Source: Thermopolyspora flexuosa (GTDB taxonomy: Bacteria; Actinomycetota; Actinomycetes; Streptosporangiales; Streptosporangiaceae). From it: 64,000 nt of DNA. The DNA lies in contig NZ_VFPQ01000001.1 of NCBI RefSeq assembly GCF_006716785.1, positions 2,542,001 through 2,606,000 on the forward strand, read 5' to 3'. Both the position numbers and the translations under genes were made by a program. Shown in pieces: positions 1,298 to 15,294 of this stretch (positions are counted from its first letter, which is position 1; each line of letters starts with the position of its first letter). The notes beneath the pieces were generated by a model, which had not been told where the DNA came from, did not search any database, and saw nothing but the letters and a program-made list of their open reading frames with translations.

Positions 1298-2905
1298 ATG
1301 ACAGCGATCGACCTGTTCGTCAGCCCGCTGGGCCGGGTCGAGGGCGACCTCGACGTGCGGGTGACGATCGAAGACGGCGTGGTCACCTCGGCCTGGACGG
1401 AGGCCGCGATGTTCCGCGGCTTCGAGATCATCCTGCGCGGCAAGGACCCGCAGGCCGGGCTGATCGTCACCCCGCGCATCTGCGGCATCTGCGGCGGCAG
1501 CCACCTGTACAAGTCCGCCTACGCCCTCGATGTGGCGTGGCGCACCCACCTGCCGCCGAACGCCACCCTGATCCGCAACATCTGCCAGGCCTGCGAGACC
1601 CTGCAGAGCATCCCGCGCTACTTCTACGCGCTCTTCGCGATCGATTTGACCAACAAGAACTACGCCAAGTCGCCGCTGTACGAGGAGGCGGTACGCCGCT
1701 TCGCCCCGTACACCGGCGAAAGCTACGGCCGCGGCGTGGTGCTGTCGAACAAGCCCGTCGAGGTGTACGCGATCTTCGGCGGGCAGTGGCCGCACTCCAG
1801 CTTCATGGTCCCCGGCGGCGTCATGTGCGCCCCGACCCTGTCGGACGTCACCCGGTCGATCGCGATCCTGGAGCACTGGAAGAACGAGTGGCTCGAGAAG
1901 CAGTGGCTCGGCTGCTCGATCGAACGCTGGCTGGAGAACCGCACCTGGGAGGACGTGCTCGCCTGGGTCGACGAGAACGAGTCCCAGCACAACAGCGACC
2001 TCGGGTTCTTCATCCGGTACGCCCTCGACATCGGCCTCGACAAGTACGGCGCCGGCGTGGGCAACTACATCGCCAGCGGCACCTACTTCGAGCCGACCAA
2101 GTACGAGAACCCCACGATCGAGGGCCGCAACGCCGCCCTGATCGGCCGCTCCGGCGTCTACGCCGGCGGGCAGTGGTTCGAGTTCGACCAGTCCCGCATC
2201 CGCGAGGACGTCACCCACTCCTTCTACGAGGGGGACAAGCCGCTGCACCCGTTCGAGGGCGAGACCCGGCCGATCGACCCCGAGCGCGGCCGGGCCCAGG
2301 GCAAGTACAGCTGGGCGAAGGCGCCCCGCTACGACGTGCCGGGCATGGGCTACATCCCGCTGGAGACCGGCCCGCTCGCCCGCCGCATCGCCGCCGGCGC
2401 GCCGGGCGCCGAGCCGCACCAGGACCAGGACCCGCTGTTCGTCGACATCCTCAACAAGATCGGCCCGTCGGTGCTGGTCCGCCAGCTCGCACGGGTGCAC
2501 GAGGCGCCCAAGTACTACCAGTGGGTGCGCGGCTGGCTCGACCAGCTCGACCTGCACGAGCCGTTCTACACCAAGCCGGTCGAGCACCCCTCCGGCAAGG
2601 GCTTCGGCTCCACCGAGGCGGCCCGCGGCGCGCTGTCCGACTGGATCGTCATCGAGGACGGCAAGATCGCCAACTACCAGGTGATCACGCCGACCGCGTG
2701 GAACATCGGCCCGCGCGACCGCGACGAGGTGCCCGGCCCGATCGAGAAGGCGATGGTCGGCACCCCGATCAAGGACCCGGAGGACCCGGTCGAGCTCGGC
2801 CACGTCGCCCGCAGCTTCGACTCCTGCCTGGTGTGCACCGTGCACGCCTACGACGGCAAGACCGGGCGCGAGCTGAGCAGCTTCGTCATCAACGGCATGG
2901 TCTGA
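1298..2905 (+). CDS. hucL: [NiFe]-hydrogenase large subunit, group 2a (Huc type)
   Basis: This 535-aa catalytic subunit splits H2 at a Ni-Fe(CN)2CO site. The four cysteine ligands are visible: the N-terminal pair in RICGICGGSH (C62, C65) and the C-terminal pair in DSCLVCTVH (C510, C513). After His516 there is a 19-residue tail that the maturation protease should remove once nickel is inserted; that protease is the next gene. Both C-terminal ligands are TGC cysteine codons, so this is not a selenocysteine enzyme despite the nearby Sec genes. The sequence keeps the MFRGFE motif near residue 38. Identification as Huc-like rests on the whole sequence pattern together with its small-subunit partner. 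Confidence 0.95.
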   Translation: MTAIDLFVSPLGRVEGDLDVRVTIEDGVVTSAWTEAAMFRGFEIILRGKDPQAGLIVTPRICGICGGSHLYKSAYALDVAWRTHLPPNATLIRNICQACETLQSIPRYFYALFAIDLTNKNYAKSPLYEEAVRRFAPYTGESYGRGVVLSNKPVEVYAIFGGQWPHSSFMVPGGVMCAPTLSDVTRSIAILEHWKNEWLEKQWLGCSIERWLENRTWEDVLAWVDENESQHNSDLGFFIRYALDIGLDKYGAGVGNYIASGTYFEPTKYENPTIEGRNAALIGRSGVYAGGQWFEFDQSRIREDVTHSFYEGDKPLHPFEGETRPIDPERGRAQGKYSWAKAPRYDVPGMGYIPLETGPLARRIAAGAPGAEPHQDQDPLFVDILNKIGPSVLVRQLARVHEAPKYYQWVRGWLDQLDLHEPFYTKPVEHPSGKGFGSTEAARGALSDWIVIEDGKIANYQVITPTAWNIGPRDRDEVPGPIEKAMVGTPIKDPEDPVELGHVARSFDSCLVCTVHAYDGKTGRELSSFVINGMV

Positions 2906-7577: not shown

Positions 7578-7749
7578 GCGCGACGAATCGCCGGATGTCC
7601 GGCGCGCGTCGATACGCCGGGACGGCACGGATGCGGGTTAGGGTCGGTAGGACCGGCCCGGGACCCGCAACGCCGCAGGTCAGATACCCTGCAAGGGCCT
7701 CCGGGCGGTCCGGATGCGGCACACATCGCGAGGCGCCCGGGAGGCGAGC

Positions 7750-10125
7750 ATGAGCGGAACACGGACGCCTTCGGCGTTCGAGCGCCCGCCCGCCGCGCTC
7801 ACCCGGCGGCGGATCACGGTCGAGGGCGTGGTGCAGGGGGTCGGGTTCCGGCCGTTCGTCTACCGCCTCGCCGCCGAGCTCGGCCTGGCCGGGTTCGTCG
7901 GCAACGACTCCCGCTCGGTGTTCATCGAGGCCCAAGGGCCTGAGGAGGACATCGAGACGCTGCTGTGGCGGCTGCGCGCCGAGGCGCCCCCGCTCGCCCG
8001 CATCACCGCGGTGCACGAGCGGGAGCTGCCCGTCGACCCGGCCGACCGCGCCTTCCGCATCGCCGAAAGCCGCGAGGCCGCCGGAGCGCGCACCCTCGTC
8101 TCCCCGGACGTGGCGCCGTGCGACGACTGCGTGCGCGAGCTGTTCGACCCGGCCGACCGCCGCTACCGGCACCCGTTCATCACCTGCACCAACTGCGGCC
8201 CCCGCTTCTCCATCATCCGCGAGCTGCCCTACGACCGGGCCGCCACCACGATGGCCGCCTTCCCGATGTGCGAGGCGTGCGCCGCCGAGTACCACGACCC
8301 GCGCGACCGGCGGTTCCACGCCCAGCCGCTGTGCTGCCACGACTGCGGGCCGCGGCTGGCGTTCCACGCCGCGCCGTACCGCGGGGAGGCGGTGACCGGC
8401 ACCGACGCCGCGCTCGCCGCCGCCCACCGGGCGCTCGCCGCCGAGCGGATCGTGGCGGTGAAGGGCATCGGCGGCTACCACCTCGCCTGCCTGCCGCACA
8501 GCGACCGCGCGGTCGGGCTGCTGCGCGAGCGCAAGAACCGGTCCGGCAAGGCGTTCGCGGTCATGGCCCGGGACCTGGCGGCGGCCCGCCGCCTCGCCGA
8601 GATCGGCCCCGCCGAGGAGGCCGCGCTCACCGGCCCGGCCCGGCCGATCGTGCTGCTGCGCCGCCGCCCCGACGCGCCGGTCTCCCCGCTGGTGGCCCCG
8701 GGCAACCCGCTGATCGGCGTGATGCTGCCGAACTCGCCGCTGCACCACCTGCTGTTCGCCCCGGTGCCCGGCCACGACACCCCCGTGCCGGACGTGCTCG
8801 TGCTCACCAGCGCGAACGTCTCCGACGAGCCGATCTGCTTCGACGATGAGGACGCCCGCACCCGGCTGCCCCGCCTGGCCGACGCGGTGCTCACCCACGA
8901 CCGGCCCATCCACGTGCCGTGCGACGACTCGGTGGTGCGCGTCGTCGACGACCACGAGCTGCCGATCCGCCGCTCCCGCGGCTACGCCCCGCTCCCGGTA
9001 CGGCTCGGCCGCCCGGTCCCGCCGATCCTCGCCGTCGGCGGCGAGCTGAAGAACACCTTCTGCGTCACCTCCGGCGAGCACGCCTTCGCCTCCGCGCACG
9101 TCGGCGACATGGGCAGCCTGGAGACGCTGCGCGCCTTCGAACGCGCCACCGGTCAGCTCACCGCCCTCTACGGCGTGACCCCCGGGCACCTGGCCGCCGA
9201 CACCCACCCCGGCTACCTCACCCGCACCTGGGCCGAGCGCAACGCGGACGGCCGCCCGGTCCACCTCGTCCAGCACCACCACGCCCACGCCGTCTCCCTG
9301 CTCGCCGAGCACGGCAGGCTCGGCGAGCCGTGCGTCGCGGTCACCTTCGACGGCACCGGCCACGGCCTCGACGGCCAGGTGTGGGGCGGCGAGATCCTGC
9401 TGGTCGAGGCCGACGCCCACCGCTTCACCCGGGCCGCCCACCTGCGCGCCGTACCGCTGCCGGGCGGCGACGCCGGGGTGCGCAACCCCTGCCGCATGGC
9501 GCTGTCCCACCTGGACGCGGCCGGCATCCCGTGGGAGGCGGACCTGCCGTGCGTGGCCGCCTGCACCCCGGCCGAGCTGAAGGTGGTCCGCGCCCAGCTC
9601 GACCGCGGCATCGGCTGCGCGGACTGCACGAGCATGGGGCGGCTGTTCGACGCGGTGTCCTCCCTGCTCGGGGTACGGCACCGCATCGGCTACGAAGGGC
9701 AGGCCGCGCTCGAGCTGGAGGCGCTCGCCGCCACCGCCACCGGCGACGACGCCGACGGGGTGCCGCCGCTGCGCATCGCGGTCGGCGACGACGGCGTGCT
9801 CGACCCGGCCCCGCTGCTGCACGGCCTGGTCGCCGGGCTACGCGCCGGCGTGCCGACGGCGGCGCTCGCGGCCGGCTTCCACCGCGCGGTCGCCGACGCG
9901 GTCACCGAGGCCGTGGCCGCGATCGGCCGCGCCCACGGCGTCCGGCTCGCGGGGCTCACCGGCGGCGTGTTCCAGAACGTGCTGCTGCTGCGCGCCTGCC
10001 GCGACCGGCTGCGCGCGGCGGGCTTCGAGGTGCTCACCCACCGCGTCGTGCCCCCCAACGACGGCGGCCTCGCCCTCGGCCAGGCGGCCGTGGCGGCCCT
10101 GCGCGTGAACGCGAAGGAGGAATGA
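7750..10125 (+). CDS. hypF: Carbamoyltransferase HypF
   Basis: HypF makes the thiocarbamate on HypE that becomes the cyanide ligand of the NiFe site. Domains in order over 791 aa: acylphosphatase ([18 protein letters not shown], ~28-45); two zinc-finger-like segments (CDDC...CTNCGP and CEAC...CCHDCGP); a YrdC-like domain ([10 protein letters not shown]...[11 protein letters not shown]); and a Kae1-like C-terminal half with [14 protein letters not shown] and TFDGTGHG. Length is normal for HypF. The ATG at 7750 follows GGAGGCGAG; an upstream in-frame ATG at 7714 has no ribosome site. A weak -10-like TACCCT at 7685 may give hypF its own promoter. Confidence 0.95.
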
Positions 10126-10127
10126 CG

Positions 10128-10397
10128 ATGTGTCTCGGCATCCCCGGAAGGATCGTCGAGGTGTGGGAGGAGAACGGCACACGGATGGCCCGCGCCGACT
10201 TCGCCGGTGAGCTACGCAAGGTGTGCCTCGCCTACCTCCCCGACCTGGCCGTCGGCGACCACATCCTCGCCCACGCCGGGTTCGCCCTCACCCGCCTCGA
10301 CGAGCAGGAGGCCAAGGCCACCCTCGAGCTGATGCGCGAGTACGCCATCATCGACGCCCCGGCCGCCGATCCCACCACGACGGGGGTGACCAAGTGA
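10128..10397 (+). CDS. hypC: Hydrogenase maturation chaperone HypC
   Basis: This 89-aa chaperone starts MCLGIPG, with the essential Cys2 exposed after Met removal. HypC binds HypD and carries the Fe(CN)2CO unit to the large subunit. I chose the ATG at 10128, not the in-frame ATG at 10122, because Cys must be residue 2. A good AAGGAGG lies 7 bases upstream, inside the end of hypF. It is the first of three HypC-type domains in the operon and overlaps the next gene by GTGA. Confidence 0.93.
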   Translation: MCLGIPGRIVEVWEENGTRMARADFAGELRKVCLAYLPDLAVGDHILAHAGFALTRLDEQEAKATLELMREYAIIDAPAADPTTTGVTK

Positions 10398-11146
10398 CCA
10401 CAAACACCGCGGTCCCCGAGCGGGACGAGGTCCTGCTCGACGAGACCGGCGCCAGGGACCTCGCCGCCGCCGCGCTCACCCTCGCCCGCCGGTTTGCCGC
10501 CGGGGCCACGCTGTGGTGCGTCGCCCCCTCCTGGGAGCCGCACGCCCACCACGTCGCCGTCGAGTTCGTCCACCCGGTCATCGTCGGCAAGCGGGCCCTG
10601 CCCGCGGTCGCGCTCACCGGCCCCGACCTGGTCGACCAGGCCCGCCTCGCGGTACGGCCCGGCGACGTGATCGTCGCCATCGCCGCCGCCGACGACCCGC
10701 AGGTGCGGTCGATCATGCGCCGCGCCCCCGCCTGGGGCGCCACCACGCTGTGGATCGGCAACGGCCCCCGGCCCCCGGCCGGCGCCGCCGACCACGTGCT
10801 GTGGGTCGACGAGCCCGACCCGCTCACCCCCGCCACCGGCCGGTTCGTGCTCCGCTACCACCTGCTGTGGGAGCTCACCCACGTCTGCTTCGAGCACCCC
10901 GGCCTGCTCACCCCCGACACCGGCGGCGACTGCGCCGGCGAGGTCTGCGTCACCTGCTCCGACGAGGGCCGCCTCGCCGAGGTGATCGGCCCGGCCGGCG
11001 ACCTCGGCGGCACCCTGGTGCGCACCGCCACCGGCGAGGAGCAGGTCGACACCACCCTCGTCGGCCCGGTCGCCCCCGGCGACCTGCTGCTCGTGCACGC
11101 CGGCGCGGCGATCACCCGCCTCGACGACGAGGAGGCCACCCGATGA
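10394..11146 (+). CDS. SIS-like domain fused to a HypC-type domain
   Basis: This 250-aa protein has two parts. Residues ~20-165 look like a sugar-isomerase (SIS) Rossmann fold: VRPGDVIVAIAAADDP, APAWGATTLWIGNG and ADHVLWVDEPD. Residues ~180-250 are HypC-like: VCVTCSDEGRLAEV...VGPVAPGDLLLVHAGAAITRLDDEEA. The Cys that starts a normal HypC is internal here, in CVTCS, and not at the N-terminus. It is flanked by hypC and a stand-alone SIS gene and overlaps both. It probably acts in ligand assembly, but the ligand of the SIS part is unknown. Confidence 0.8.
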   Translation: MTTNTAVPERDEVLLDETGARDLAAAALTLARRFAAGATLWCVAPSWEPHAHHVAVEFVHPVIVGKRALPAVALTGPDLVDQARLAVRPGDVIVAIAAADDPQVRSIMRRAPAWGATTLWIGNGPRPPAGAADHVLWVDEPDPLTPATGRFVLRYHLLWELTHVCFEHPGLLTPDTGGDCAGEVCVTCSDEGRLAEVIGPAGDLGGTLVRTATGEEQVDTTLVGPVAPGDLLLVHAGAAITRLDDEEATR

Positions 11147-11814
11147 GCTCGGACACCGGATTCCTCTATCCCTTCCTCGAGGCCGAGGAGCGCGACGCCG
11201 ACCGGCTCCTCGCCGACCTCGCCGAGTCGGCCCGGGCGAAGGCCGCCGAGAGCGCCGCGCTGCGGCGCCGTACCCTCGCCGAGTGCGCCGGCCTGATCGA
11301 GACCGCCGCCGCCGAGCTGGCCCGCCGGTTCGCCGCGGGCGGCCGCATGTACGTGTTCGGCAACGGCGGCAGCGCCACCGACGCGGCCACCCTCGCCGCC
11401 CTGTTCGCCCGGCCGCCCGCCGCCGAGGGGGTGCGGCCGCTGCCCGCCTGGTCGCTCGCCGCCGACGAGGCCGTGGTCACCGCCCTCGGCAACGACGTCG
11501 GCTTCGACCTGATCTTCTCCCGGCAGCTGATCGCCCGGGCCCGGGAAGGCGACATCGCCGTGGCGCTGTCCACCAGCGGCAACTCCGCCGACCTGACCAC
11601 GGCGCTCGCCGAGGCGCGCCGCCGCGGCCTGTACACGATCGGGTTCGCCGGGTACGACGGCGGCGCTTTCGCCGCCGAGGGCACGGTCGACGCCTGCTTC
11701 GTGGTGCGCTCCCAGAGCGTGCACCGCATCCAGGAGTCCCAGGCCCTGCTCGGCCACCGGCTGTGGGCCGCGGTGCAGCGCCACCTCGCCGCCCACGGGG
11801 GAGGGCCGCGATGA
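11143..11814 (+). CDS. SIS-domain protein (GmhA-like phosphosugar isomerase fold)
   Basis: This 223-aa protein resembles sedoheptulose-7-phosphate isomerase: an N-terminal helical segment, MYVFGNGGSATDAATLAALF at ~66-85, then LSTSGNSADLTTAL and HRIQESQALLGHRLW near the end. These are the phosphosugar-binding loops and the conserved C-terminal helix of GmhA. Its position between the SIS-HypC fusion and hypE, with 4-base overlaps on both sides, argues against heptose synthesis and for a part in hydrogenase maturation. Actinobacterial hyp operons commonly carry such a gene. The substrate is unknown. Confidence 0.82.
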   Translation: MSSDTGFLYPFLEAEERDADRLLADLAESARAKAAESAALRRRTLAECAGLIETAAAELARRFAAGGRMYVFGNGGSATDAATLAALFARPPAAEGVRPLPAWSLAADEAVVTALGNDVGFDLIFSRQLIARAREGDIAVALSTSGNSADLTTALAEARRRGLYTIGFAGYDGGAFAAEGTVDACFVVRSQSVHRIQESQALLGHRLWAAVQRHLAAHGGGPR

Positions 11815-12998
11815 CCACGACGGGCGCAGGCGAAGGCAACGGAACGACGGTGAGGCAGGACGTGGACGACAAGCACGCGAGCGGCACGAGCACGACGGGC
11901 GCCGCGAACGGGCGGCGCGGGCCGAGGTTCAGCGAGGACCAGGTGCTGGAGCGCATCGACGCCTTCCGGCGCCGCCGCCCCCGGCTGCACGAGGAGGTGG
12001 TCACCCTCGCCCACGGCGCGGGCGGCAAGGCCTCGGCCGCGCTCGTCGACGCGGTGTTCCTCGAGGCCTTCAGGGACGAGGAGCTGGACCGGCGCGGCGA
12101 CGGCGCCGTGCTCGAGCTGCCCACCGGCGAACGCCTCGCGTTCAGCACCGACTCGTTCGTGGTGCACCCGCTGCGCTTCCCCGGCGGCTCCATCGGCCAT
12201 CTCGCCGTGCACGGCACCGTCAACGACCTGACCATGATGGGCGCCCGCCCGCAGTGGATCTCCGCCGCGTTCGTCATCGAGGAGGGCCTGCCCGTCACCG
12301 ACCTGCAGCGGATCGCCGCCGACATGGCCGAGGCGGCCCGCGCCGCCGGGGTGCGCATCGTCACCGGCGACACCAAGGTGGTCGCCTCCGGCGCCGCCGA
12401 CGGCCTGTTCATCACCACCGCCGGCGTCGGCGTCATCCCGGCCGGCCGTACCCTCGCCGCCGACCGGGTACGGCCCGGTGACCGCGTGCTGCTGTCCGGC
12501 ACCATGGGCGACCACGGCATGGCCGTGCTGCTCGCCCGCGGCGACCTGGGCATCGAGAGCGACATCGTCTCCGACACCGCCCCGGTCAACCACCTCGCCG
12601 AGGCCCTGCTCGAGGCCGCCCCGAACACCCGGTGGCTGCGCGACCCCACCCGCGGCGGCGTCGGCACCGTGTGCAACGAGCTCGCCCGCGACACCGGCCT
12701 GGGGGTGGTGCTCGAGGAGTCCCGGCTGCCCATCGCCCCCGACGTGGCGGGCGCCTGCGAGATGCTCGGCATCGACCCGCTCTACGTCGCCTGCGAGGGC
12801 CGCTTCCTCGCCGTCGTGCCCGCCGACGAGGCCGACGCCGCGCTCGCCGCGCTGCGCGCCCACCCGCTCGGCGCCGGGGCCGCGATCATCGGCGAGATCA
12901 CCGAGCAGCCCGCCGCCACGGTGGCGCTGCGCACCGACTTCGGCGGCACCCGCATCGTGGACATGCTCGTCGGCGATCCGCTGCCGCGCATCTGCTAG
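11811..12998 (+). CDS. hypE: Hydrogenase maturation protein HypE
   Basis: HypE is an AIR-synthase-like ATPase that dehydrates the carbamoyl group from HypF to thiocyanate on its C-terminal Cys. The protein is 395 aa and ends PLPRIC, so the catalytic Cys is the last residue as required. Core motifs include LAHGAGGKASAALVD at ~65, FSTDSFVVHPLRFPGG, HGTVNDLTMMGA and RDPTRGGVGTVCNELA. The first ~45 residues are a Gly/Thr-rich extension not usual for HypE. The ATG overlaps the preceding stop (ATGA). The true start could lie further in. Confidence 0.95.
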   Translation: MTTTGAGEGNGTTVRQDVDDKHASGTSTTGAANGRRGPRFSEDQVLERIDAFRRRRPRLHEEVVTLAHGAGGKASAALVDAVFLEAFRDEELDRRGDGAVLELPTGERLAFSTDSFVVHPLRFPGGSIGHLAVHGTVNDLTMMGARPQWISAAFVIEEGLPVTDLQRIAADMAEAARAAGVRIVTGDTKVVASGAADGLFITTAGVGVIPAGRTLAADRVRPGDRVLLSGTMGDHGMAVLLARGDLGIESDIVSDTAPVNHLAEALLEAAPNTRWLRDPTRGGVGTVCNELARDTGLGVVLEESRLPIAPDVAGACEMLGIDPLYVACEGRFLAVVPADEADAALAALRAHPLGAGAAIIGEITEQPAATVALRTDFGGTRIVDMLVGDPLPRIC

Positions 12999-13025: not shown

Positions 13026-13298
13026 ATGTGTCTGGGCATTCCCGGCCAGGTCGTCGAGATCGTCGACCCCGAGCAGCACCTGGCCAAGGTCGAGGTGAGC
13101 GGCGTGCGCCGCACGATCAGCGTGCGGCTCCTCGCCGACCAAGGGCTCGGCCCCGGCGACTGGGTGCTGGTGCACGTCGGCTTCGCCATGGCCAAGATCG
13201 ATGAGGAGGAGGCCGCGCTCACCCTCGACGCCATGCGCAAACTCGGCCAGGCCTACCAGGACGAACTCGAGGCGTTCGACTCCACGGCGATCGTCTAG
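13026..13298 (+). CDS. hypC: Second hydrogenase maturation chaperone HypC
   Basis: This 90-aa protein starts MCLGIPGQVVEIVD and has the family's VSGVRRTISVRLL, GDWVLVHVGFAMAKID and EEEAALTL segments. An AAGGGGG ribosome site precedes the ATG. Together with the copy at 10128 and the fused domain at 10394 it gives three HypC-type domains in one operon. One may serve HypD as scaffold and another may act as chaperone for HucL. That division is an inference. Confidence 0.92.
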   Translation: MCLGIPGQVVEIVDPEQHLAKVEVSGVRRTISVRLLADQGLGPGDWVLVHVGFAMAKIDEEEAALTLDAMRKLGQAYQDELEAFDSTAIV

Positions 13299-13390
13299 CG
13301 GCGACCCGAGGCCCGCGCCACCGCACCCCCCGACACCCGACCACCGCCCGGAGCCGATCCGCGGCGAACCCACGCACAAAGGAGATGCCG

Positions 13391-14524
13391 ATGCGCTTCG
13401 TGGACGAGTTCCGCGACCCCGCGGCCGCGCGCGCCCTGGTGGCCGCCATCGCCGAGCTTGCGGGATCGGACCACTTCAAGTTCATGGAGGTGTGCGGCGG
13501 CCACACCCACACCATCTACCGGCACGGCATCGAGCACCTGCTGCCCGAGAACGTCGAGCTGGTGCACGGCCCCGGCTGCCCGGTCTGCGTCATCCCGATG
13601 GGCCGGGTCGACGACGCGCTGTGGCTCGCCGAACAGCCCGACGTCATCTTCACCACGTTCGGCGACATGATGCGCGTGCCCGGCAGCCGCGGCAGCCTGC
13701 TCGAGGCCAAGGCCCGCGGTGCCGACGTCCGCTTCGTCTACTCACCGCTCGACGCGCTGCGCATCGCCGTCGACAACCCCGGCAAGCAGGTGGTGTTCTT
13801 CGCCGTCGGGTTCGAGACCACCGCCCCGTCCACCGCCGTCACCCTGGTGCGCGCCCGCGACCTCGGGGTGAGGAACTTCTCGGTCTTCTGCAACCACGTC
13901 ACGATCGTCCCGCCGATCAAGGCGATCCTCGAGTCGCCCGACCTGCGCCTGTCCGGCTTCCTCGGCCCCGGCCACGTCTCCACCGTCGTCGGCACCCGCC
14001 CCTACGAGTTCGTGCCCAAGGTGTACGGCAAGCCGCTCGTGGTCGCCGGGTTCGAGCCGCTCGACATCCTCGCCGCCGTCGCCATGCTGCTGCGGCAGAT
14101 CCGCGAGGGACGCTGCGAGGTGGAGAACCAGTACGCGCGGGTGGTGCGCGACGAGGGCAACCCGCAGGCGCTGCGGCTGATGGCCGAGACCTTCGCGCTG
14201 CGGCCCCACTTCGAGTGGCGCGGCCTGGGGTTCATCTCGCAGAGCGCGCTCAGGCTCGCCCCCGCGTTCGCCGAGTTCGACGCCGAGCAGCGGTTCGACA
14301 TGCCGGGCGTGCGGGTCGCCGACCCCAAGGCCTGCCAGTGCGGCGAGGTGCTCAAGGGCGTCATCAAGCCGTGGGAGTGCAAGGTGTTCGGCACCGCCTG
14401 CACCCCCGAGACCCCGATCGGCACCTGCATGGTCTCCCCGGAGGGCGCCTGCGCCGCCTACTACAACTACGGCCGCATGCACCGGGAGGCCGCCCAGCTC
14501 GTCGGGCGGGGCGGCGGGCGATGA
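13391..14524 (+). CDS. hypD: Hydrogenase maturation protein HypD
   Basis: HypD is the FeS scaffold on which the Fe(CN)2CO unit is assembled with HypC. The 377-aa protein shows KFMEVCGGHTHTIYRHG near residue 31, VHGPGCPVCVIPMG, FFAVGFETTAPSTA and FCNHVTIVPPI. The C-terminal [4Fe-4S] cysteines are in CQCGEVLKG, ECKVFGTACTPETPIGTC and EGACAAYY. I place the start at 13391 because AAAGGAG ends 6 bases before it; the in-frame ATG at 13385 directly abuts that site. The stop overlaps the next gene by ATGA. Confidence 0.95.
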   Translation: MRFVDEFRDPAAARALVAAIAELAGSDHFKFMEVCGGHTHTIYRHGIEHLLPENVELVHGPGCPVCVIPMGRVDDALWLAEQPDVIFTTFGDMMRVPGSRGSLLEAKARGADVRFVYSPLDALRIAVDNPGKQVVFFAVGFETTAPSTAVTLVRARDLGVRNFSVFCNHVTIVPPIKAILESPDLRLSGFLGPGHVSTVVGTRPYEFVPKVYGKPLVVAGFEPLDILAAVAMLLRQIREGRCEVENQYARVVRDEGNPQALRLMAETFALRPHFEWRGLGFISQSALRLAPAFAEFDAEQRFDMPGVRVADPKACQCGEVLKGVIKPWECKVFGTACTPETPIGTCMVSPEGACAAYYNYGRMHREAAQLVGRGGGR

Positions 14525-15294
14525 CCGCCGCCACCGGCTTCGCCGGGGAGCGGCTGTTCGCCCGCTACGCCTACGCCCCCAACGACCTGGGCTACTGCGG
14601 GCCCGCGCAGTCGCGCATCCTGCTCGAGTGCGGCGCGGGCGGCGGCGACCCGGCCCGGGTGCGCGAGGTCGCCCGCGCCTTCACCGGCGCCTGGCCGTAC
14701 CTGCGGATCCTCGCCCGCCTGGCCGGGGCCGCCGACCCGCTCGACCCGCGCGTGGTCGACGCCTACTGGATCGGCGGCGGCCTCGGCGACCAGGTCGACG
14801 GGCGGGCGTTCGGCAAGGAGCTGCTCGCCGAGATCGGCGCCCAGGCCGGGCACTACTGGCGGCACCTCACCCCCGAGCTGGTGGAGGAGGCCGCGCCCAA
14901 CCACTGCTTCCACGTGTTCGGCGTCTACCCCTGGTCGCGGCTGCTCGGCGCGGGCGCCGGCGACCACCCGCTGCGGGTGCTCGACGGCTGCCGCATCAAC
15001 TGGGGCACCGTGCTGGAGCGGCCGGACGCCGGGCGGGTGAAGGTGCGCAGCCGCCGCCTGCTGTGGGACGGTACGCGGCTGTCGCTGTCCGAGCCGCGCG
15101 ACGGCGAGGCCACCCTCGCCGTCGACGGGCACGCCTTCGTCCCCGACGTGCGGCCGGGGGACCGGGTCGCGCTGCACTGGGGCCTGGTCTCCGACCGGCT
15201 CACCGAGGAGCAGGCCGAGCGGCTGCGCCGTACCACGCTCGCCCAGCTCGAGGCCACCAACCGCCGCCTCGCCCGGGCCGCCGCCACCCCCTGA
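14521..15294 (+). CDS. DUF6390-like protein at the end of the hydrogenase operon
   Basis: This 257-aa soluble protein has the opening RYAYAPNDLGYCGPAQS and conserved-looking segments YWIGGGLGDQVDG, NHCFHVFGVYPWSRLL and VLDGCRINWGTV. I associate this pattern with DUF6390, a family seen beside actinobacterial hydrogenase genes. No biochemical role is known to me. The overlap with hypD makes it part of the same transcript. The C-terminal ~90 residues (from RVKVRSRRLLWDG) have a beta-rich look, ending in PGDRVALHWGLVSDRL, faintly like the end of HypC. A maturation role is inferred from context. Confidence 0.7.
   Translation: MTAATGFAGERLFARYAYAPNDLGYCGPAQSRILLECGAGGGDPARVREVARAFTGAWPYLRILARLAGAADPLDPRVVDAYWIGGGLGDQVDGRAFGKELLAEIGAQAGHYWRHLTPELVEEAAPNHCFHVFGVYPWSRLLGAGAGDHPLRVLDGCRINWGTVLERPDAGRVKVRSRRLLWDGTRLSLSEPRDGEATLAVDGHAFVPDVRPGDRVALHWGLVSDRLTEEQAERLRRTTLAQLEATNRRLARAAATP

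Follow-up and report, generated by a model that had tools for sequence, protein, structure and literature searches.

GmhA, the sedoheptulose-7-phosphate isomerase of the SIS_2 family (PDB 2X3Y, 2XBL, 5I01), is the closest described relative in fold of the sugar-isomerase (SIS) proteins presented here, and its active sites sit at the interfaces of three chains (PMC5705639). In GmhA crystals one monomer contributes H61, E65 and H183 while its neighbour provides Q175 (PMC5387315), and in a model of the Mycobacterium tuberculosis enzyme the phosphate-binding Asn/Gly and Ser-Thr-Ser-Ser residues together with a Gln bind the substrate, with a Glu contributed by the other monomer (PMC7705670). SIS genes have also been encountered near hydrogenase genes, namely as a putative gmhA in acidobacterial group 1h loci (PMC5900883), as a SIS cluster in a survey of hydrogenase neighbourhoods (PMC12727194) and in a computed association of GmhA, HypD and HypE (PMC3231954). 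As far as we searched the literature, the hyp-linked SIS gene is named there but its function is not discussed (PMC5900883, PMC12727194), and a search that had subscription papers outside its scope returned no description of a split active site. Single SIS proteins adjoining hypC and hypD, each with the whole GmhA-type site in one chain as in proteobacterial single SIS proteins generally, are encoded in a group 1h cluster of Cupriavidus (C. necator pHG1, H16_RS31885), a 2a cluster of Bradyrhizobium (X268_RS39005) and a hyp set of Afipia (OCA5_RS17420). They share an N-terminal LYPF motif with one of the proteins described below, but are made from one gene, with no split and no fusion to a HypC-like domain. 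Two further systems serve for comparison, the chaperones HypC, HybG and HupF, and HypX, which makes CO from formyl-tetrahydrofolate and is likewise an accessory gene of hyp sets of aerobic hydrogenases.

The window, by which we mean the whole analysed stretch of 64,000 nucleotides from Thermopolyspora flexuosa, contains a compact hyp operon that includes two SIS genes. Upstream of it the window encodes the two subunits of a group 2a-type hydrogenase (224-2905), along with one NifU/Rieske and one NHL protein. The relevant features are the following.

224-1195: hydrogenase small subunit, upstream of the hyp genes
1298..2905, + strand: HucL, large subunit of the group 2a-type [NiFe]-hydrogenase
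7714..10125, + strand: HypF (TIGR00143, 728.8 bits)
10128..10397, + strand: HypC1, canonical (MCLGIPG), a type also present in SIS-less Huc operons
10394-11146, + strand: SIS-HypC' fusion gene, GTG start at 10394
10394..10918, + strand: SIS-A domain, residues 1-175 of the fusion, GmhA-like SIS fold
10946..11146, + strand: HypC' domain, residues 185-250 of the fusion, HypC-like barrel
11143..11814, + strand: SIS-B, GmhA-like protein (Pfam SIS_2 and GmhA models)
11811..12998, + strand: HypE (TIGR02124, 420.2 bits)
13026..13298, + strand: HypC2, canonical, partner HypC of the SIS-linked HypD lineage
13385..14524, + strand: HypD, SIS-linked lineage
14521..15294, + strand: DUF6390 protein, C-terminal part weakly HypC-like

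The junctions of the SIS genes overlap by 4 bp each (10394-10397, 11143-11146 and 11811-11814), and the first-pass annotation, which had described a SIS-HypC fusion followed by a GmhA-like protein with both overlapping hyp genes, gave coordinates and genes exactly. At the end of the operon, the DUF6390 protein is modelled by AlphaFold (pLDDT 90) with helices in its N-terminal part and a barrel at the C-terminus, for which HypC is the best, although weak, PDB match (E 0.015). Cys26, His128, His131, Cys157, His219 and Trp220 are invariant in this protein. If this barrel is added to HypC1, HypC' and HypC2, the number of HypC-like domains in the operon would come to four.

Pfam and NCBIfam models recognised only the HypC part of the fusion and gave no SIS match to it. 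The N-terminal part is a SIS fold, as seen from BLAST searches that joined SIS-A to SIS-B in relatives at ~40% identity, from a profile of 36 orthologues with GmhA as best, though weak, PDB match (E 0.024) and from an AlphaFold model (mean pLDDT 79, pTM 0.78) with GmhA crystal structures as its top PDB matches (E 5.6e-9). The fusion is far beyond chance, since it has 73 relatives in other genomes, nearly all of them in the same hyp neighbourhood. Its residues His53, Glu57 and His156 correspond to H64, E68 and H183 of GmhA; H163 as the counterpart of H183 was ruled out, as a wider alignment places H156 there. SIS-A of the window and of its close relatives has lost one substrate-binding segment of GmhA, and the ligand therefore need not be a heptose phosphate.

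SIS-B clearly belongs to the SIS_2 family (60.6 bits, cut-off 27, E 2e-16) and has intact GNGGS and STSGNS phosphate loops as well as Gln197 at the position of GmhA Q175, with T83 and L87 instead of the His64 and Glu68 of GmhA. Its N-terminal LYPF motif recurs as LYP in all 44 SIS-B domains compared and is common to the single SIS proteins, SIS-A being without it, which makes this segment a candidate for docking. Since GmhA models match SIS-B, one could think of ordinary heptose-biosynthesis genes that came into the operon by chance. This we regard as very improbable: SIS-B reaches 105.7 bits against the GmhA equivalog TIGR00441 with its cut-off of 209.45, the maturation SIS proteins form a clade of their own, the genome has another GmhA-like gene elsewhere (L092), which carries a site of its own, and the hyp neighbourhood is conserved across dozens of genomes.

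The HypC' domain scores above the cut-off of PF01455 (36.1 bits, cut-off 28.5, E 7e-9) and below that of NCBIfam TIGR00074 (34 bits, cut-off 48). It shares the barrel fold and the conserved His (His235) with HypC, HybG and HupF, but it is fused or internal and has no N-terminal Met-Cys, showing instead a CxTC(S/G)D motif in fused and stand-alone forms alike. In the window this motif is internal and reads C185-V-T-C188-S-D, and CxTC is retained in nearly all HypC' domains. The pairing of SIS with HypC pointed out in the first-pass annotation thus holds for a HypC-like domain, but not for a true HypC. In relatives, both within the family of the window and in many other families, HypC' has a small gene to itself that lies between those of SIS-A and SIS-B, and in operons of the same lineage with no SIS nearby it also adjoins HypD (L146-L148). 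HypC' thus belongs to that HypD set, and SIS is the addition.

In order to see how the GmhA site is distributed over the two proteins, 43 SIS-A and 44 SIS-B domains from many loci were aligned with GmhA (B. pseudomallei numbering). H64, E68 and H183 are kept in 43 of 43 SIS-A domains, which have lost the phosphate loops. All 44 SIS-B domains have the GNGGS and STSGxS loops, D61, D98, Q175 and E176, and neither H64 nor E68 occurs in any of them (0/44 each; H183 in 38/44). H64, E68, Q175, H183 and the phosphate loops, which GmhA combines in a single chain, are thus divided between SIS-A and SIS-B, and as a pair the two lack none of the GmhA residues checked for phosphate binding, metal binding and catalysis. 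The zinc, acid/base and phosphate site of GmhA is the union of A and B residues, lying here over two paralogues of which each chain is incomplete and whose genes stand in hyp operons. As GmhA takes these two residue sets from neighbouring monomers, A and B together should rebuild one complete site, where the assignment of phosphate loops and metal to different chains relies on the literature, which in one case describes a homology model. From the alignment we consider such a composite site probable, and together with the published structures it predicts an A-B heteromer with one full and one dead site. Alternatively the SIS pair could be a purely structural assembly factor on HypC2-HypD with its active site unused, much as DiaA acts on DnaA. 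In favour of this, the PDB matches include DiaA of E. coli, a SIS protein whose name marks it as a DnaA-associating factor, and a HypC-like domain fused to SIS suits docking. However, it is hard to explain for an unused site why every metal, acid/base and phosphate residue is retained in complementary fashion in diverse loci, and we consider a mere scaffold unlikely.

The two halves also evolve together. A and B lie in one reading frame in 23 loci that were examined, many bacteria encode them as one chain, and in Thermus thermophilus this is a single chain of 392 residues on a plasmid. In the SIS tree all A form one clade, all B another and the single type a third, with GmhA outside; the order of branching among these three is not settled, and the tree is consistent with an ancient duplication after which the copies lost complementary parts. 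Within-set distances of A and B correlate with a Mantel r of 0.90, a value reached in 0 of 2000 permutations. One Huc operon belongs to the SIS-linked type but is without SIS-B, and its SIS-A-HypC' fusion (L142 15900-16800, genome G382) is degenerate, with the His and Glu lost. On a plasmid of Sulfobacillus acidophilus an unannotated SIS-A-SIS-B fusion (L099 11430-12640) falls into two frames near the end, due to either a frameshift or a sequencing error. In Thermus (L014 14986-15246) and Sulfobacillus (L099 12622-12849) the gene after the SIS fusion encodes a small protein resembling glutaredoxin, and glutaredoxin 3 has been reported from acidobacterial loci (PMC5900883). On a plasmid of Mycobacterium intracellulare the same hyp operon lies beside the Calvin-cycle genes for rubisco, transketolase and phosphoribulokinase (L013), and sugar phosphates of this cycle are possible ligands.

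Among 246 Actinomycetota genomes SIS-B (threshold E < 1e-43) was found in 34, of which 32 have a HypD at least 65% identical to that of the window. Such a HypD is present in 40 genomes, the same 32 with SIS-B among them, and a further one (G149) turned out to have an A-B pair. SIS-B is missing from all 89 genomes whose HypDs are more distant throughout, and strong SIS-B matches are confined to genomes with a HypD of at least 65% identity or with none found. In the HypD tree, made by a quick method and with an unsure placement of the long C. necator HypD1 row, a long branch with full support sets the SIS-linked lineage apart from the canonical SIS-less HypDs. In a few cases HypDs of this lineage, broadly taken, occur in operons without SIS (L146-L149). 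The SIS module accompanies both group 2a (Huc) and group 1h (Hhy) hydrogenases, and the idea that it is bound to one hydrogenase type was rejected. The linkage with hyp genes and the co-inheritance expected of a maturation factor are both found, and a dedicated role of the SIS pair in hydrogenase maturation is very probable.

How general this role is can be judged from Huc loci without SIS. In a class sample of 198 Actinomycetes genomes, in which HucL was counted at 74% identity or more, HucL is present in 14, SIS-B in two of these 14 and HypX in none, leaving 12 with neither, in which the large subunit is mostly 74-86% identical. Within one genus (60 genomes, 23 with HucL) SIS-B is missing from 16 of the 23. 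Four SIS-less Huc loci that were examined in full (L138-L141) have HypF-HypC1-HypD-HypE with a HypD ~52-54% identical to that of the window, so two HypCDE sets, with or without SIS, apparently serve the same enzyme. Assuming an active hydrogenase, SIS-less genomes would apparently be the natural counterpart of a double SIS loss, yet with a different HypD. Across orthologous Huc loci (L136-L145) one of two gene orders is found downstream, HypC1-HypD-HypE in some and HypC1-SIS-HypE-HypC2-HypD-DUF6390 in others, a pattern that looks like an exchange of the HypDE block.

These sets also bear on a role in iron handling, in which the His-Glu-His-Gln site, together with the CxTC motif of HypC', would bind Fe(II) and pass it to HypC2-HypD, with a helper ligand in the phosphate pocket. 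A divalent metal is bound in sites of the GmhA type, the motif is there in nearly all HypC' domains and a recent study still regards the origin of the iron as an unsettled question (PMC10847431). But the metal of GmhA is zinc and HypCDE sets without SIS exist for the same hydrogenase, and we give this role a rather small chance.

Regarding the carbon ligand, HypX is built differently, from formyltransferase and enoyl-CoA hydratase domains, and is tied to another HypD lineage in Streptomyces-type loci. A search of the T. flexuosa genome for HypX was negative and its three formyltransferase frames are too short for HypX, from which we conclude that HypX is absent from this genome. HypX and SIS-B occur together in only one genome per sample (G124 among the 246, G004 in the class sample). 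Both observations would suit a SIS pair that takes the place of HypX by setting free CO or a formyl donor from a phosphosugar. Statistically, however, the low overlap carries no weight, because HypX is rare and comes from three genera only in the class sample, and we make no claim of an anti-correlation. C. necator encodes both, HypX in the hyp set of its MBH and SIS in a hyp set of actinobacterial type, and transposon data showed that its primary hyp genes are not rescued by the alternative ones (PMC11540253). A general substitute for HypX should be present wherever an aerobic hydrogenase lacks HypX, and the 12 HucL genomes with neither gene, together with C. necator, show that SIS is no simple stand-in; a general substitution was rejected. 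We know of no CO release in GmhA chemistry, which also counts against a supply of CO or C1 units by the pair, and we regard it as improbable. The suggestion of the first-pass annotation that the SIS proteins might bear on the source of CO in aerobic maturation is hence unsupported as a general rule, as the SIS module is not general among Huc genomes. A narrower variant, in which A, B and HypC' form a second, HypX-independent carbon-ligand supply within the SIS-carrying HypD lineage, with a sugar phosphate activated at the metal site and the HypC2-HypD-bound iron receiving a one-carbon unit from it, is just as doubtful.

Taken together we favour, with a probability of about one half, a split, GmhA-derived and metal-dependent A-B complex that sits on HypC2-HypD-HypE and binds a sugar phosphate, thereby gating or assisting Fe(CN)2CO assembly. 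SIS-A and SIS-B would be two halves of one enzyme-like complex descended from a GmhA-type sugar-phosphate isomerase, with metal ligands and acid/base residues (His, Glu, His) from SIS-A, the phosphate pocket and Gln from SIS-B, and each pair having one complete metal/phosphosugar site opposite a dead interface. Docking on the specific HypC2-HypD-HypE scaffold would probably occur via two elements, the HypC' fusion partner of SIS-A and, on SIS-B, the LYPF tail. The complex is expected to bind and probably isomerise a small sugar phosphate, and we infer that either this chemistry or the occupancy of the site gates or assists the assembly of Fe(CN)2CO on the scaffold. Of these elements the analysis itself establishes the fold, the partition of residues, the co-inheritance and the place in the operon; complex formation, docking, ligand, catalysis and gating are inferences. 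That the SIS pair uses a sugar-phosphate ligand or reaction at all seems somewhat better than an even bet. The proposal of a phosphosugar that takes part in or regulates the making of Fe(CN)2CO therefore stands in part: the site residues kept across the pair and the tie to one HypD lineage make a ligand of the phosphosugar type likely, and its action on the cofactor stays at the strength of the reading just given.

In summary, split GmhA-derived proteins have been recruited and wired to one HypCDE lineage. Among the kinds of hydrogenase that consume atmospheric H2, some are thus served by a HypCDE set with a split sugar-phosphate enzyme and others by one without. As an entry point for future work the system offers one composite site with defined residues on two proteins, natural single-chain versions and SIS-less controls within one genus. 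Should the assembly of the metal centre be under the control of a sugar phosphate, or be fed by one, a connection we met in no maturation scheme during our literature search, the carbon status of the cell would be linked to hydrogenase maturation.
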